12,736 nucleotides of DNA from Nitrospirota bacterium (GTDB lineage: Bacteria > Nitrospirota > Nitrospiria > Nitrospirales > Nitrospiraceae): the NCBI GenBank assembly GCA_005877535.1, contig VBOM01000111.1, forward strand, positions 1 through 12,736. The letters run 5' to 3'. Made by a program: the position numbers and the translations under genes. Positions 5,482-12,632 of this stretch are shown here, one piece after another; position 1 is the first letter of the stretch, and each line of letters opens with the position of its first letter. A model generated the notes under the pieces. That model was not told where the DNA came from. It was given only the letters and a program-made list of their open reading frames with translations, and ran no database searches.

Positions 5482-6570
5482 ATGGCTCTCTCGCGATTCG
5501 CGATTCACGATTCACGATTTACACGTGTTGCAGCCGTCCTCTTCTCCGTCAGTGCGCTCATCCTTGTATTCGTGGGGTTGTGGGAGTGGGATGTGCCGTT
5601 GACCAGGTTCGTCCGCTCCCTTTATCCACCGGTCGGCTCTATACCCAATCCCTGGCTGATTCAATTCAGCGACATCGGTGACCGCCTGGGCAAGGGGGAG
5701 TCTCTGGTGATCCTGAGCCTCGCGCTGCTGGCGATCGGGTATGGATTGAAACATACACAGTGGAAAGATGCCGGCAGGCAGAGTCTCATCGCGCACGGTC
5801 TTTCCGCGTTGATTGCCAATATTTTGAAACATGCCATAGGCCGTCCTCGCCCCAAGTTCATGCATGCCGGCAACCTCGAGTTTTCTCCAGCCGCCGGGAG
5901 CGGATGGGACTCGTTTCCGTCGGGGCATGCGGCGGCGGCGATCTCGGTTGCAACCGTGCTGGCCATAAAGTTCCCGCGAGCGAGATGGCCCATTCTCGCT
6001 GCGGCAGTGGCCATCGCCGCCAGTCGGATTCTCCGCGGGTCTCATTATCTGACCGACGTGGCCGGAGGAGCGGCTCTCGGCTGTGTTATGGGAGTGATTG
6101 CAACCCATCCCTGGCGCGAATGGCTTTCATCGGCTGGAATGGCTGTCTGCCGGATGACGCCATTTTTTGTGGCGGCGCTCGCACTGGTCTGGACGATCGT
6201 GCATATTCCGTCGGAAGCTTGGCCGTTTCAACAGCTCTTGTGGGGTGGCCTGTTACTCACCCTGGCGGGACTCGTGGGCCATGTCTTGTGGACAGTGCAG
6301 TTGTCATGGTGTCCGGCCTGGCTGTCCGGATCGCTGGCTCGCGGTCTCGTGGGACTGGGGTTAGGGATGACGACTGGCTCTCTGTTTGTCACCACCATCG
6401 TGCTGCTCGTCTGTGCGGCACATTGGTGGAATGGTCTCCCTGGTCAGATCGAGCCTCTGGCGGAGGGTCATGTGGGGTTATGGGCGGCAATGGTGGAGGG
6501 TCTGTTCGTCGCGGCCATGCTGTTAGTGCTGGTGGCGAGCTATGCACTGAAAGGCATCGTGCCGATGTAG
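5482..6570 (+). CDS. PAP2-family membrane phosphatase
   Basis: PAP2 enzymes remove phosphate from lipid phosphates such as undecaprenyl pyrophosphate or phosphatidate. All three family motifs are present: KxxxxxxRP as K116 to P124 (KHAIGRPRP), PSGH at 146-149, and SRxxxxxHxxxD at 181-192 with H188 and D192. Hydrophobic segments lie near residues 17-34, 74-90, 103-115, 150-163, 168-182 and 192-207, as expected for a membrane enzyme with its active site on the outer face of the inner membrane. Residues 226-358 add at least three further membrane segments beyond a minimal PAP2 unit; their role is unknown. Codons 4-13 are encoded by a 7-bp tandem repeat. No Shine-Dalgarno is seen before ATG 5482, but no better in-frame start exists before the first membrane segment. 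The stop again coincides with a repeat-element end. The substrate cannot be assigned. Confidence 0.85.
   Translation: MALSRFAIHDSRFTRVAAVLFSVSALILVFVGLWEWDVPLTRFVRSLYPPVGSIPNPWLIQFSDIGDRLGKGESLVILSLALLAIGYGLKHTQWKDAGRQSLIAHGLSALIANILKHAIGRPRPKFMHAGNLEFSPAAGSGWDSFPSGHAAAAISVATVLAIKFPRARWPILAAAVAIAASRILRGSHYLTDVAGGAALGCVMGVIATHPWREWLSSAGMAVCRMTPFFVAALALVWTIVHIPSEAWPFQQLLWGGLLLTLAGLVGHVLWTVQLSWCPAWLSGSLARGLVGLGLGMTTGSLFVTTIVLLVCAAHWWNGLPGQIEPLAEGHVGLWAAMVEGLFVAAMLLVLVASYALKGIVPM
5492..5519 (+). repeat. Four 7-bp tandem units at the PAP2 start
   Basis: Two copies of CGCGATT followed by two of CACGATT run without interruption. The array lies in the PAP2 reading frame, starts 10 bp after its ATG, and gives residues around RFAIHDSRF. 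Confidence 0.8.
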
Positions 6571-8959: not shown

Positions 8960-9060
8960 TCACTTATCTCGGAATGTATACCGCAGCACTCTGGTCTGCA
9001 TCCAGTGCATAGCGATCAGGTCGTAAAGGCTTTTGAAGAGGCGGTTGCCTACGCCGTACT
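8960..9060 (-). pseudogene. 3' remnant of a second GT2 gene
   Basis: On the minus strand from about 9060 the sequence encodes KYGVGNRLFKSLYDLIAMHW, then MQTRVLRYTFRDK and a TGA stop ending at 8960. Over 29 residues it matches the C-terminus of the adjacent GT2 protein at 25 positions, but in another frame. The N-terminal part is absent. DNA identity over the 86-bp unit is only about 74 percent (64 of 86) and most differences are silent, so the two copies diverged while both were selected as protein. This is best read as the end of a lost tandem paralogue, not a recent duplication. Confidence 0.75.
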
Positions 9061-9146
9061 TGTATATCGCAGTACTCTGGTTTGCATCCACCGCACTGCA
9101 ATCAAATCATAGAGAGATGTGAATAATCGGTTACCCATGCCGTACT
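8975..9146. repeat. 86-bp tandem repeat, two units
   Basis: Units 8975-9060 and 9061-9146 align without gaps, 64 of 86 bases identical. The right unit is the 3' end of the intact GT2 gene, the left unit its remnant paralogue. The period of 86 is not a multiple of three, which puts the remnant out of frame. Confidence 0.85.
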
Positions 9147-9780
9147 TGGAGATGCCGTGAATGCGTGGGTAATGCCGGACCGGCACCTCCGTGACAGTGA
9201 ACCCATGCATGAGCGCGAGCGCAGGAAAGAATCGGTGCATGCCCTCGAAGAGGTGGATACGTTCCAGCACAGGTCGTCGGAATATCTTGAGTGGACATCC
9301 TGTGTCGTGGACGCCGTCGTGAGTAAAGAAGTTCCGCACACGGTTGGCAATTCTGGACGATATTTTTTTCACCAGGCCATCTTGCCGCTCTTGCCTCCAT
9401 CCGCACACGAGATCGTGGGTAGCAGTATAGGGGAGGAGTTTCAAAATGTCTTGGCTGTCCTGTTGAAGATCGCCGTCAATTTCGATGATCAATTCGCCGG
9501 AAGATTGACTGAACCCCGCGTTGATCGCGCAGGTCTTGCCGTAGTTTCTGTCGAAGTGGAAGACCTGCACCTGTCGGTGCTGGTCCGCCAGGCGATCCAG
9601 TGCTTCACTGCTGCCATCGCTGCTGCCATCGTCCACGAAAATGATTTCAAACGGCCGAGTTTGCGAGGCCGCATGTGAATTCATGACGGTCAGCAGCCCC
9701 TCAATCAGTGGAATGAGATTGTCTCGCTCGTCCTTGATGGGGACGATGACGGAAGCCCATGGATGGGATGGCACGGTCAT
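9049..9780 (-). CDS. GT2 glycosyltransferase, polyprenyl-phosphate sugar synthase type
   Basis: The 243-residue enzyme has a GT-A fold of the DPM1/ArnC-like group, which loads a sugar from a nucleotide donor onto polyprenyl phosphate at the cytoplasmic face. Motifs: SVIVPIKDE (10-18), FVDDGSSDGS (48-57), the metal-binding DGDLQQD (102-108), DTGCPLKIFRR (159-169) and HGISKYGMGNRLF (208-220). No C-terminal membrane helices are present, unlike ArnC. ATG 9780 is chosen over an in-frame GTG at 9816 because the promoter at 9831-9859 would start transcription only a few bases before 9816. An AGGAA lies 12 nt before the ATG. The last residues (STA-stop) come from an out-of-frame junction with the paralogue remnant; the native tail, probably like FRDK, is lost. 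The product likely feeds the GT-C enzyme of the same cluster; the sugar is unknown. Confidence 0.88.
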   Translation of the reverse strand: MTVPSHPWASVIVPIKDERDNLIPLIEGLLTVMNSHAASQTRPFEIIFVDDGSSDGSSEALDRLADQHRQVQVFHFDRNYGKTCAINAGFSQSSGELIIEIDGDLQQDSQDILKLLPYTATHDLVCGWRQERQDGLVKKISSRIANRVRNFFTHDGVHDTGCPLKIFRRPVLERIHLFEGMHRFFPALALMHGFTVTEVPVRHYPRIHGISKYGMGNRLFTSLYDLIAVRWMQTRVLRYTSTA

Positions 9781-10001: not shown

Positions 10002-10580
10002 CTAGTCTCCTGACGCCGCCACGATAGTGAAGCGCATCGTACCCATCAGACTCATCTCATTGACCTGCTCTCCCACATGGATTTCCACTTTGTATCGGCC
10101 GGGTTTCCATGCGTCCTGTGGTGGGGAGAGCTTGAGATACCCGCTTTCGTCTTCGAGCGCAATGTGCATGGCATCTTGGCCGATCACCACGGTGGGATCG
10201 AGGCCGGCTACTGCTTCCGGGAAGCAGCGTCCGAACACCTGGAATCCCTGATAATGTTGGTGGAGGTGGAACACAATGAAGACTGCGGGGATATCGGAGC
10301 GGAACCGATCGGTCGGTTTGACCGGCACGATTTCGTGCGTACGATGAAAGCCCAGTTCCTCGTCGAATCCTTCCGCTGTCGTAATGGTACGGAATAGGCC
10401 TTGCGGCGGAGCGTCGAAGTCGTAGGGGGTGACGTCTTGAGGGCGGTTCTGAAAATCAGGGATCGGAGAATTCTTGGTGATCGGCAGCTCCGCTGCCAGA
10501 ACTTCCGGCAGCGCCGACAGAGTGATGACAATGACCGCTGCGATCGCCCTTTGCCTCGATCGTCTCGCACCTCTCGCCAT
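10002..10580 (-). CDS. Secreted protein of unknown function
   Basis: I do not recognise this family. The 192-residue product starts with a signal peptide: basic MARGARRSRQR, hydrophobic AIAAVIVITLSALPEVL, likely cleavage after residue 30 (LAA-E). The mature part begins with a Pro- and Asp-rich stretch (33-60). A segment rich in beta-strand character follows (97-188), with FIVFHLHQHY, VIGQDAMHIALEDESGY and WKPGRYKVEIHVGEQV. The last resembles the closing strands of an immunoglobulin-like fold in which a ligand or partner is bound extracellularly. A single Cys (119) excludes an internal disulfide. ATG 10580 is preferred over GTG 10595 because it starts directly at the basic n-region. It points away from the four-helix-bundle gene and is upstream of the GT2 cluster on the same strand, but the GT2 cluster has its own promoter. 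Function open. Confidence 0.7.
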   Translation of the reverse strand: MARGARRSRQRAIAAVIVITLSALPEVLAAELPITKNSPIPDFQNRPQDVTPYDFDAPPQGLFRTITTAEGFDEELGFHRTHEIVPVKPTDRFRSDIPAVFIVFHLHQHYQGFQVFGRCFPEAVAGLDPTVVIGQDAMHIALEDESGYLKLSPPQDAWKPGRYKVEIHVGEQVNEMSLMGTMRFTIVAASGD

Positions 10581-10624
10581 AGCGTCTTGGTACACCGACC
10601 GGCAGGGGCTGTCAAGGCAACTAA

Positions 10625-10666
10625 CCCAAGGGGAGAGGCGAAAGGCTTGAGGCGAGGGGCGAGCGG
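10625..10666. repeat. Array of six GG-ending 7-mers, left of the four-helix-bundle gene
   Basis: Uninterrupted 7-bp units on the plus strand: CCCAAGG, GGAGAGG, CGAAAGG, CTTGAGG, CGAGGGG and CGAGCGG. All end in GG and most fit CNNNAGG. The array lies in the divergent region between the secreted protein gene and the four-helix-bundle gene, just before the latter's predicted promoter. Confidence 0.7.
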
Positions 10667-10680
10667 TACGGAAAGGACGG

Positions 10681-10710
10681 TTGCGACTAAATTTCTGGTT
10701 CTGTTAGAAT
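10681..10710 (+). promoter_or_regulatory. Predicted promoter of the four-helix-bundle gene
   Basis: TTGCGA (10681-10686), 18-bp spacer, TAGAAT (10705-10710). The -10 hexamer is identical to that of the GT2 promoter. The leader to GTG 10754 would be about 37 nt. Confidence 0.5.
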
Positions 10711-10753
10711 CCCCCTCCTTTAACGAAACCCGCCAGGCGAGGGATACGAGACC

Positions 10754-11125
10754 GTGGGCAAGAAGGGATTTAAGGATCTGCTCGTGTGGCAGTTGGCAAA
10801 AGATTTGGCGGTGAGAGTGTATTGTGTATCGGAAAGCCAAAACCTCAAGAAAGACTTCGGTCTTTGCGATCAGATTCGGCGGAGTGCGGTCAGTGTCGCG
10901 AGTAATCTGGCGGAGGGAGATGAGCGCAGCTCGGATCGAGACTCGGTGCGCTTCTTTTACATGGCGAAGGGTTCCGTCGCTGAAGTACGGACACAAATCC
11001 AAATCGCTTGGGAAGTCGGCCATCTAAGGAAGCCGGAGTACGACAGCCTTGAAGCGGAGTATGAACAGCTGGCTAAGAAGATCGGGAGTCTCATCAGGGC
11101 CCGGAGCCAAGCCTCTAGCCATTAA
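10754..11125 (+). CDS. Four-helix-bundle protein (S23 / 23S rRNA intervening-sequence protein family)
   Basis: The 123-residue protein belongs to the small four-helix-bundle family first found in 23S rRNA intervening sequences and related to bAvd of diversity-generating retroelements; members form pentameric bundles. Family landmarks are FKDLLVWQLAKDLAVRVY (6-23), the basic turn GLCDQIRRSAVSVASNLAEG (36-55), RFFYMAKGSVAEVRTQI (66-82) and a final helix (95-117). Here it is outside any rRNA gene and no reverse transcriptase is in the window. The start is GTG 10754, preceded by GAGGG ending 10 nt upstream and by a promoter-like pair. Arrays of 7-bp repeats lie before the gene and across its stop codon, in opposite orientations. 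The last residues (QASSH) are read from the right array. The biological role of stand-alone members is not established; nucleic-acid binding is suggested by the basic surface of relatives. Confidence 0.9.
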   Translation: MGKKGFKDLLVWQLAKDLAVRVYCVSESQNLKKDFGLCDQIRRSAVSVASNLAEGDERSSDRDSVRFFYMAKGSVAEVRTQIQIAWEVGHLRKPEYDSLEAEYEQLAKKIGSLIRARSQASSH

Positions 11126-11143
11126 CTAACCCCTTGCCCCTAG
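11112..11143. repeat. Inverted array of 7-mers, right of the four-helix-bundle gene
   Basis: On the minus strand the units CTAGGGG, CAAGGGG, TTAATGG and CTAGAGG can be read, with 4 extra bases in the middle. They resemble the units at 10625-10666 but in opposite orientation, so the gene is framed by an inverted pair. The array overlaps the last codons and stop of the gene. Confidence 0.5.
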
Positions 11144-11156
11144 ACTGGATTTATTT

Positions 11157-12632
11157 ATGTTGCAGGACGCAGACGCCTTACCCCAGCTCATCGGCGACTA
11201 TAAGCCGGTCGATCAGTGGCAAGTCCACATCAATAGGCTCTTCTACCGCTTCCGGGGCGATCAGATCCGCAGCTTCTACCAAACGTTTGCCTCAGTCGAC
11301 CATCGGCTCGCCCATGCGCTCGCGGCAGACTATTTCGAAAAAGTCGTGAAGCGCGAAAAAACGTCAGGCGTCAGGCGCCAGGCGCCAGGCGAAAATGCGT
11401 CGGATGCACGCCTCACCCCTCACGCCTCACCCCTCACGGTGATGGAATGGGGCCCAGGCAACGGCAACCTCGCTGCCTGTTTCTTGAGCCATCTCCAGGT
11501 CCTCGATAAAGACGGAGTGATTTATCCCCGCATTCGATATGTACTGGTCGATTGGGAACAAGCAGTGCTCGATGCAGCCCTGGCTCATCCGGAACTCGCG
11601 TCTCACCGCAATCGGGTCGAGACACATCGGGGGACCGTTGACCGGCTCGACGGTGTTGCGGATGGCAGCGTGGATCGCATCATCTGTAACGAACTGTGGA
11701 ACGATCTCCCGACAAAATTGATGTCGCGCAAGGCGAACGACATTGAAGAGGAGTTCCTTCGACCGAACTTGAGTGAAGCCTTGCATGCGAAGATTCCTGA
11801 CTGGGCTGCCTTTGTCCGGGCGTTCGACGCCATGGATGTGGAGGCGCTCAAGAGCTTCCCCCCCTTCCTCGACGACCTAGTGTGGGAGCGGGAATATCGG
11901 ACGATCGAATGGAAAGAAGTCCCCTACCGGAAGACGACCACGGATTTCCTCAAACGCATCGATGAGCAAGTGTTGGTTCCCGTCAATCTGGGAGCCTATG
12001 CCACGATCAAGGAAGCCAAGCGCCTGTTGGCTTCGAAGGCGATCGGGTTCAGCAGTTTCGACGCAGGTACGGCGGATATGAACGTGCTGAACGATCCGGA
12101 GAAGCCTTGCTATGGCCAATTTGGCGGGCAACAGAGTTTCATGGTCAACTTTGCGTTAGCCGAGGCGGTCTCCAAGCAGTTGGAGGCCGGCACGATGACG
12201 ATAGAAAGCCAGCGTGAGTTTGTGGGGCGCAGCTTGGGGACCAACGTCTTGACTCTCATGGATCTCATCGCCACCCATCCTTCCGCCGGTACGAAAATGC
12301 CGCCGTGGGAACAGGACCGCTTGATGCTCAAGACCCTCCGTGCGTTGAACGAGACTTATCGTAGCCCCTATGCACGCCATTTGGACTTCCCAATTCCGTT
12401 GGAGATGCCGCCAGAGGAGCGTGAGGCACTCCAGGCTCTTGTGCGCTCGCTCACGCCGACAGGCATTCCGGACACCGTCGCCTATCTCACAGAGGAAGAC
12501 AGACTGGGCTTGTCCCAGACGTGTAGACCAGTGAAACTGCGACCTGCCCCACAGTGTTTTCCCGCAGCCTATCAGGCCCAAACATCCAGATTTACTGAAT
12601 TTTCGCTTGACTCAGTTCTTGTTCTTCTATAG
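11157..12632 (+). CDS. MidA/NDUFAF7-like SAM-dependent methyltransferase
   Basis: This 491-residue protein looks like a divergent member of the MidA family (DUF185), whose mitochondrial relative NDUFAF7 methylates an arginine of a complex I subunit. Supporting elements are SAM motif I EWGPGNGNLAACFL (97-110), the acidic post-I strand YVLVDWEQAVLDAAL, ICNELWNDLPTKLM in place of the family's NE-x-x-DALP motif, and YGQFGGQQSFMVNFALAEAV near the C-terminal half. A stretch at about residues 66-94, immediately before motif I, is encoded by two inverted 7-bp arrays and has no family character (VRRQAPGENASDARLTPHAS). It is in frame and contains no stop, so the protein may tolerate it. The protein is also longer than typical MidA, about 380 residues. 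ATG 11157 follows the four-helix-bundle stop by 31 bp with only a weak GGA upstream. The target protein is unknown. Confidence 0.72.
   Translation: MLQDADALPQLIGDYKPVDQWQVHINRLFYRFRGDQIRSFYQTFASVDHRLAHALAADYFEKVVKREKTSGVRRQAPGENASDARLTPHASPLTVMEWGPGNGNLAACFLSHLQVLDKDGVIYPRIRYVLVDWEQAVLDAALAHPELASHRNRVETHRGTVDRLDGVADGSVDRIICNELWNDLPTKLMSRKANDIEEEFLRPNLSEALHAKIPDWAAFVRAFDAMDVEALKSFPPFLDDLVWEREYRTIEWKEVPYRKTTTDFLKRIDEQVLVPVNLGAYATIKEAKRLLASKAIGFSSFDAGTADMNVLNDPEKPCYGQFGGQQSFMVNFALAEAVSKQLEAGTMTIESQREFVGRSLGTNVLTLMDLIATHPSAGTKMPPWEQDRLMLKTLRALNETYRSPYARHLDFPIPLEMPPEEREALQALVRSLTPTGIPDTVAYLTEEDRLGLSQTCRPVKLRPAPQCFPAAYQAQTSRFTEFSLDSVLVLL
11362..11389 (+). repeat. Four 7-mer units inside the methyltransferase gene, left arm
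   Basis: CGTCAGG twice followed by CGCCAGG twice, without gaps. The units fit the CGNNAGG form of the array at 10625-10666. This is the left arm of an inverted pair around a 21-bp centre. Confidence 0.85.
11411..11438 (-). repeat. Four 7-mer units inside the methyltransferase gene, right arm
   Basis: On the plus strand CCTCACC and CCTCACG alternate twice. On the minus strand these are GGTGAGG and CGTGAGG, so the arm is inverted relative to 11362-11389. A hairpin between the arms would pair about six of every seven positions in the best-matching units. Confidence 0.85.

Follow-up and report, generated by a model that had tools for sequence, protein, structure and literature searches.

Heptamer arrays in inverted orientation around IVP-family genes outside rRNA: a probable small mobile element

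The closest described relatives of the locus treated here are the intervening sequences (IVSs) of 23S rRNA, the REPIN/RAYT system, the Avd proteins of diversity-generating retroelements (DGRs) and the heptameric simple sequence repeats (SSRs) of Xanthomonas and Nostoc. The Coxiella IVS is 428-444 nt long with a 28-bp terminal stem, and the IVS has been described as a selfish element in rRNA (PMC4990558). A 23S rRNA IVS with an S23/IVP ORF shares its protein family and a similar size with the elements described below, and has complementary ends around the ORF (PMC4990558), whereas the elements read here lie between ordinary protein genes, end in heptamer arrays and commonly have gene-less derivatives. 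RAYT types are single-copy per genome (PMC3116915). The likeness to REPIN/RAYT lies in a gene flanked by its own repeats, in inverted repeat doublets elsewhere, and in repeats that are lineage-specific. The differences are that the flanked gene encodes PF05635 alone and not a Y1 transposase, and that the ends are tandem heptamers where those of a RAYT are palindromic REPs. DGR Avd belongs to a homologous protein family (PMC10053308), but no match to the reverse transcriptase profile PF00078 was found in the genome that holds the locus (G000, 79.8% complete).

The heptameric SSRs of Xanthomonas and Nostoc (GGGAATC and GGGGA(C/T)T) mostly have four units, and X. campestris has 70 convergent heptamer pairs, the function of which was left open (PMC4692102). 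Like the present arrays they are G-rich heptamers, and a Nostoc plasmid IVP gene found here has GGGGAAA-type arrays. None of the words intervening, four helix, S23, transposase and RAYT was found in PMC4692102, and no link of IVP genes to heptamer arrays was found among the matches listed for open-access PMC. The convergent heptamer pairs of Xanthomonas and the IVS as a selfish rRNA element are already published; the IVP elements outside rRNA that have heptamer-array ends appear to be new.

The IVP gene of the window and its arrays

The window is the whole stretch of DNA that was analysed, 12,736 nt, and forms one contig (C474) in a draft assembly of 505 contigs that is 79.8% complete. Its IVP gene (10754..11125, plus strand) encodes 123 aa from a GTG start, and matches PF05635 with an E value of 2.9e-33 and 114.7 bits (curated cut-off 33.8) and TIGR02436 with 112 bits (cut-off 24). 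Judged from these profile matches, the product is a member of the 23S_rRNA_IVP/TIGR02436 four-helix-bundle family. The Pfam and NCBIfam profiles give the IVP family alone, with no recombinase motif in the protein, and its net charge is about zero. The gene is placed between a divergent ORF upstream (10002-10595, minus strand), which has no family match in the Pfam and NCBIfam profiles, and a methyltransferase-like gene downstream (11157-12632, plus strand, PF02636); judged from these neighbours, it is not within an rRNA gene. A near-twin locus with 98% protein identity (L034) is found in a Nitrospira MAG. The draft genome has another IVP gene at C466 2916-3228 (L003, L004), the third of the genome, which is split across two frames.

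The preliminary description took six GG-ending heptamers at 10625..10666 (plus strand; CCCAAGG GGAGAGG CGAAAGG CTTGAGG CGAGGGG CGAGCGG) as the left array framing this gene. The heptamers are real and above chance, since the window has one chain of GG (or CC) with at least six steps at spacing 7 and 100 first-order Markov copies have none. They are not adjacent to the gene, however: 87 bases separate this outer left array from the IVP start codon, and between them lies a putative promoter-like stretch of the methyltransferase leader, recognised by eye (10681..10710, plus strand; TTGCGA at 10681-10686 and TAGAAT at 10705-10710). The IVP gene lies downstream of this stretch, which is conserved also in relatives that have no IVP gene at the window's site. 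The outer array is separable from the gene as well, being present without it in G018 (L256) and absent from L035, which has the gene; it is not the terminus of this gene. The left array of the gene is instead a decayed inner one (about 10735..10762, plus strand; AGGCGAG GGATACG AGACCGT GGGCAAG), which contains the start codon and was read by eye against L035 and L036, where it is clean. In eight loci (L250, L254, L257, L261, L264, L265, L267 and L270) a gene-less inverted pair of GCTGATN type was read by eye in place of the outer left array.

The right array (11104..11143, minus strand, C orientation, read by eye) crosses the stop codon and reaches the methyltransferase leader, and this arrangement is also kept in L107 and L034. 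The right set of the original description (11112-11143) indeed spans the stop codon (11123-11125) and, with runs of CC, is oriented opposite to the left set, but its units are loose and their phase is interrupted; it is weaker than the left set, a degeneracy that had been recognised from the start. The window copy shares one inverted and two direct 8-mers between its flanks, and is among the 12 of 119 copies failing the shared-8-mer test given below. This copy is best explained as a decayed element, inherited locally, in the methyltransferase gene's 5' leader. The 9-base repeat AACTAACCC, found in direct orientation at 10619 and at 11124, was rejected as a candidate target duplication because it is absent from L107 and L035.

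The strongest arrays of the window in a lag-7 scan (5488-5524, 11358-11395 and 11406-11439) are not beside the IVP gene. The array at 11358..11395 (plus strand, GTCAGGC units) is gene-less and lies within the methyltransferase ORF, and the array at 11406..11439 (minus strand, CACGCCTCACCCCT units) is its inverted partner; the DNA fold of this pair has a z of -2.06. Window positions 11341-11439, together with L248-L275 and L035, represent one fixed place in the methyltransferase coding sequence that has in-frame heptamer tracts differing by species (GTCAGGC, GGGGTAA, CTCAGCA, GTCAAAC and CTTCAGC types, with 20 of the 30 loci readable). From these tracts the place looks like a hot spot where array types replace each other. 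The array at 5488-5524 is of CGATTCA type and lies where a phosphatase-like ORF (5482-6570) begins; upstream of it an inverted partner, degenerate, was recognised by eye. An imperfect 86-bp tandem duplication at 8975-9148 runs from the end of a glycosyltransferase gene into the GT2/LAB_N gap, which is a site holding IVP cassettes in other species.

Heptamer arrays beside IVP genes in other genomes

By profile search, 28 of 32 genomes of the genus have the IVP family, at up to 11 matches per genome, whereas none of 14 control genomes has it. Regions were fetched around 120 IVP matches and at 20 random places, three matches below the family cut-off being excluded. Six of the 120 regions gave no gene by our own profile (ORFs of at least 60 aa) and were dropped, and none of the 20 random regions gave one. 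With overlapping hits merged, 124 IVP genes of the genus with at least 40 bits were kept, 119 of them with both flanks, and 1291 ORFs more than 600 bp away from any IVP gene served as controls. A first score based on GG and CC chains (128 genes, threshold 4) gave GG in 20 and CC in 1 on the 5' side, CC in 19 and GG in 8 on the 3' side, and a GG..CC inverted pair in 9 of 128 IVP genes against 2 of 1512 controls. It was too narrow because the heptamers vary by lineage, and tests of lag and of shared 8-mers took its place.

Lag-7 self-similarity (at least 20 of 28) was found on the 5' side of 28%, the 3' side of 30% and both sides of 13% of the IVP genes, against 4%, 7% and 1% of the 1291 controls. 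Lags 3 to 6 and 10 to 13 beside IVP genes gave at most 1%. Lag 14 was elevated (15% 5', 13% 3' and 6% both), being a multiple of 7; lag 8 was slightly elevated (5%, 5% and 3%, against at most 1% in controls), and lag 9 on both sides was at 3% against 0. At least three 8-mers were common to the 5' flank and the reverse complement of the 3' flank in 101 of 119 copies of the genus (85%), compared with 8.8% of the 1291 controls, 7.8% of 474 size-matched controls and 10.5% of 332 controls from random regions; swapping partners among IVP genes gave 11.6%. By orientation, 76 of the 119 copies are inverted-dominant, 23 direct-dominant and 12 neither.

The association extends beyond the genus. Eleven genomes of other groups, picked for holding a relative, have 1 to 14 IVP matches each. 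The inverted test with at least three shared 8-mers was passed by 27 of 31 IVP genes from other phyla (scores of 40 bits or more, 150 bp or more on each flank, duplicates excluded) and by 7 of 63 control ORFs, and 23 of these genes are inverted-dominant and 4 direct-dominant. The preliminary description had made its case depend on arrays being commoner beside this family than beside size-matched control genes and on an orientation bias; in the genus as in other phyla they are far commoner, and the bias is towards the inverted arrangement. Among 14 plasmid records, picked for variety out of 37 with an IVP match and taken without control genes, ten are inverted, with three or more shared 8-mers that outnumber the direct ones, two have direct or equal arrays and two are weak. 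The plasmid IVP locus L315 has period 8 by eye, so that seven is a rule and not a law. No match to the IVP family was found in the phage records searched. In cyanobacterial plasmids, IVP genes with arrays were seen inside cas operons, at L307 1465-1894 (between cas10 and cmr3) and at L310 1282-1963 (between cas6 and cas4). Some IVP lineages have direct rather than inverted arrays (L155, L157 and L159; L090, L122, L130 and L132; AACTCAG type, AAACCAG type), and in L122, L130 and L132 a reversed array lies further upstream of the direct ones.

The heptamers appear to be a property of the gene lineage. A Dirichlet-multinomial array score placed both sides above the control 95% line in 23% of 150 IVP genes and in 0.5% of 200 controls, and with periods 5, 6, 8, 9 and 10 (60 genes) 3 to 17% passed this line. 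Both arrays score above 10 in just 65 of the 150 genes, and the comparison of own with other heptamers covers these 65. The left heptamer has a median similarity of 0.91 to the reverse complement of the gene's own right heptamer and of 0.39 to those of other genes, and inverted similarity beats direct similarity in 52 of the 65. Among pairs without a common neighbour gene, heptamer similarity goes from 0.36 below 25% protein identity (649 pairs) to 0.70 at 60-80% (14 pairs); the Mantel r between heptamer similarity and protein identity is 0.239, which was reached by 0 of 2000 permutations. The scored IVP genes carry their own lineage-specific heptamer, mirrored on both sides. The commonest array size is five units (16 of 56 left arrays and 21 of 57 right arrays), short arrays being harder to detect.

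Occupied sites, empty sites and gene-less arrays

Among the 155 IVP proteins for which 1500 bp or more of context was available, all 39 pairs with at least 90% identity share a neighbour gene, and 18 of the 75 pairs at 80-90% are without one. The clade with the GGCTGAA heptamer has eight loci, which fall at five unrelated places. L096, L099 and L109 adjoin a heptosyltransferase-type gene and L105 a NusG-type gene; pyrB and pyrC flank L094 and L097, a histidine kinase and a regulator flank L129, and phoH and ybeY flank L106, the gene names being read from translations. Across places the proteins are 84-92% identical (24 comparisons), and the DNA aligns over 362-425 bp at about 80-86% around the gene while the neighbour genes do not align. 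Among the alignments listed, some pairs of this clade have further short repeats of 51-120 bp elsewhere. Movement is seen in the GGCTGAA clade, which is another clade than that of the window copy. The highest identity among the 287 same-genome IVP pairs of the genus is 67%, so no burst of copies was caught, and a better fit than bursts is an element that moves without multiplying locally, or one that passes from genome to genome.

Twelve of the 29 loci between phoH and ybeY are readable: one is filled (G013), one has an internal-deletion derivative that retains 205 bp (G022), two have a different insert and eight are empty. Compared with the empty site of G026, the filled site has a clean 447-bp insertion at the overlapping stop and start codons (TAATG), where at most a single base could be a target duplication. 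The different insert (L353, L354) is about 200 bp long, begins with ACAGGATGCTGAAACAGTCC and contains a near-complement of that start. Between pyrB and pyrC, 22 of 29 loci are without an insert, two are filled, one has only the gene end on the contig, three have gene-less array pairs (G008, G011 and G015) and one is unread. The ends of the element are not exactly readable there, since filled and empty sites differ at the pyrC start too. G008, with a gene-less pair at this site, has its copy of the same GGCTGAA clade elsewhere (L105).

The window's site was readable in 25 of 28 loci, of which three are filled and 22 have no IVP gene, among them G027, which has a deletion retaining the outer left array, the last codons of the gene and the right array. 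The GT2/LAB_N site, read in 25 of 28 loci, has an intact IVP motif in five and a gene split between frames in G026, along with at least three array-keeping deletion derivatives (G015, G017 and G028) and short insert-free sites in G001 and G025. It is occupied by two lineages with 39-42% protein identity and different arrays. Presence and absence at homologous sites, the lack of which the preliminary description had named as counting against mobility, was found at all of these sites, and the idea that gene and arrays form a small mobile cassette gains support at the level of the family (array excess, orientation bias, empty sites and the five-site clade), the window copy itself being decayed.

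Gene-less arrays are a regular part of these genomes. Lag-7 arrays that lie away from IVP genes number 154, and 85 of them have an inverted partner within 180 bp, compared with 9 for random places, so that inverted doublets elsewhere in the genome, as known from REPIN/RAYT, are found here too; direct partners (20) are near the background of 14. Gene-less heptamers are closer to the IVP heptamers of their own genome than to those of others in 124 of 147 cases with the same locus allowed. With the same locus excluded the effect is modest (88 of 139; label permutation 3/2000), as is the excess of gene-less/IVP heptamer pairs above 0.85 at other loci of the same genome (7.4% against 3.3%). In the four genomes without an IVP match, one lag-7 array was found in about 245 kb, and in random regions of IVP-bearing genomes, totalling 400 kb, there were 14 (p about 0.008, binomial). 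This contrast is weak because the four genomes are incomplete or of small size and lag-9 tracts shift likewise (2 against 10). The five gene-less pairs read in detail (in G027, G015, G028, G022 and G011) are internal deletions with gene remnants, which identifies them as losses.

Two candidate features of the gene-less arrays were set aside. Targeting of terminator hairpins is not general: CTGAAAAAG was found close to 6 of the 154 gene-less arrays, where its rate of 1.3% at random places would give about 2, and close to 2 of 119 IVP genes. Spacers common to gene-less pairs score at least 24 in 15 of 2081 comparisons against 0 shuffled, most of them from a few composite regions. A spacer core derived from the gene-less pairs gave three finds in 1.83 Mb, all between GTGAAA-type arrays, a result that is partly circular and too small in number to carry a claim.

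The abundance of heptamers has been attributed, as a proposal, to polymerase slippage (introduction of PMC4679880; discussion of PMC4692102), and the arrays might arise in this way, with the IVP gene just inserting into existing arrays or surviving beside them. Arrays that exist without genes, and an outer array that is separable from the gene at the window's site, are consistent with such an origin. We nevertheless consider it quite unlikely: the arrays are mirrored and are not one direction split by a gene, the scored genes have their own heptamer on both sides, arrays and gene are jointly absent in eight of the 12 loci read between phoH and ybeY, and the remnants in the five gene-less pairs mark losses. 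The arrays could also be operators or mRNA sites through which IVP regulates itself and its operon, mobility being incidental. This would agree with the position of the elements between neighbouring genes, beside stop and start codons, and with the array that covers the start codon in L035 and in the window, but plain autoregulation does not predict the widespread gene-less inverted pairs or a clade at five places, and this explanation is considered very unlikely.

An IVP gene with its two bracketing heptamer arrays is probably a small mobile element of about 450 bp, the ends of which are inverted arrays of a lineage-specific heptamer.

Enzymes, folding and a model of the element

The element may alternatively be IVS-like at the RNA level, with arrays that pair in the transcript, an RNA that is released by RNase III and reverse transcribed back into DNA, and the Avd-like protein as a cofactor. 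The protein family is that of the IVS, the size and terminal stem of which in Coxiella are given above (PMC4990558), the Avd of DGRs is related (PMC10053308), and the arrays at the ends of L037 pair in the predicted RNA. The stability of the whole-cassette RNA fold is not significant in either of the two cassettes folded, however (z -0.74 for L037 and +1.28 for the window), and PF00078 is found in just 7 of the 28 IVP-bearing genomes and in one of the four without IVP, so an RNA route is regarded as unlikely. G025, which is 99% complete and has five IVP matches, has no match to PF00078, and none to the Y1 transposase profile PF01797.

A Y1 transposase of the IS200/RAYT type, acting in trans on the arrays, has in its favour that two gene-less pairs fold as stable hairpins like REPINs (z -4.17 and -4.55 in the DNA fold series) and that PF01797 is found in 17 of the 28 IVP-bearing genomes. 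The remaining 11 are without a PF01797 match, and these include G025, G026 and G027 at 99% completeness, which leaves this explanation with hardly any credibility.

For a mobile element made of the IVP gene and its arrays, a plausible mechanism is that the IVP protein binds the heptamers of both ends, perhaps with one heptamer per subunit, and that the bound protein pairs the two ends. Cutting and joining would then fall to an activity of the host, or to one of the IVP protein itself that has gone unrecognised. The solved relatives 2gsc (XCC0516) and 2rld each have five chains, and the title of the XCC0516 paper, as it stands in the reference list of PMC10053308, mentions five four-helix bundles. 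These structures suggest, as a leading guess, a ring that would take five heptamers per end, and the commonest array size of five units bears on the idea of one heptamer per subunit. The gene-less pairs may be non-autonomous relatives of the IVP element, by analogy with REPINs and RAYTs.

We conclude that IVP elements outside rRNA behave like RAYT/REPIN and have an IVS-like protein and size, and that they are a member of neither. It is also possible, as a tentative proposal that we put forward short of an even expectation, that they form a new class of transposon, the sole gene of which encodes a four-helix-bundle ring of the Avd/IVP type and not a known nuclease. The ring would read about five lineage-specific heptamers per inverted end, one per subunit, gene-less derivatives would explain much of the unexplained heptanucleotide repeats of bacteria, and the rRNA intervening sequences would be one specialised branch. 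The role of the IVP/S23 family and the movement of its rRNA intervening sequences form one question, and the dominance of 7-base units among long bacterial simple repeats forms another; the two become testable together, and mobile IVP elements may help to explain why 7-base repeats are so common in bacterial genomes.
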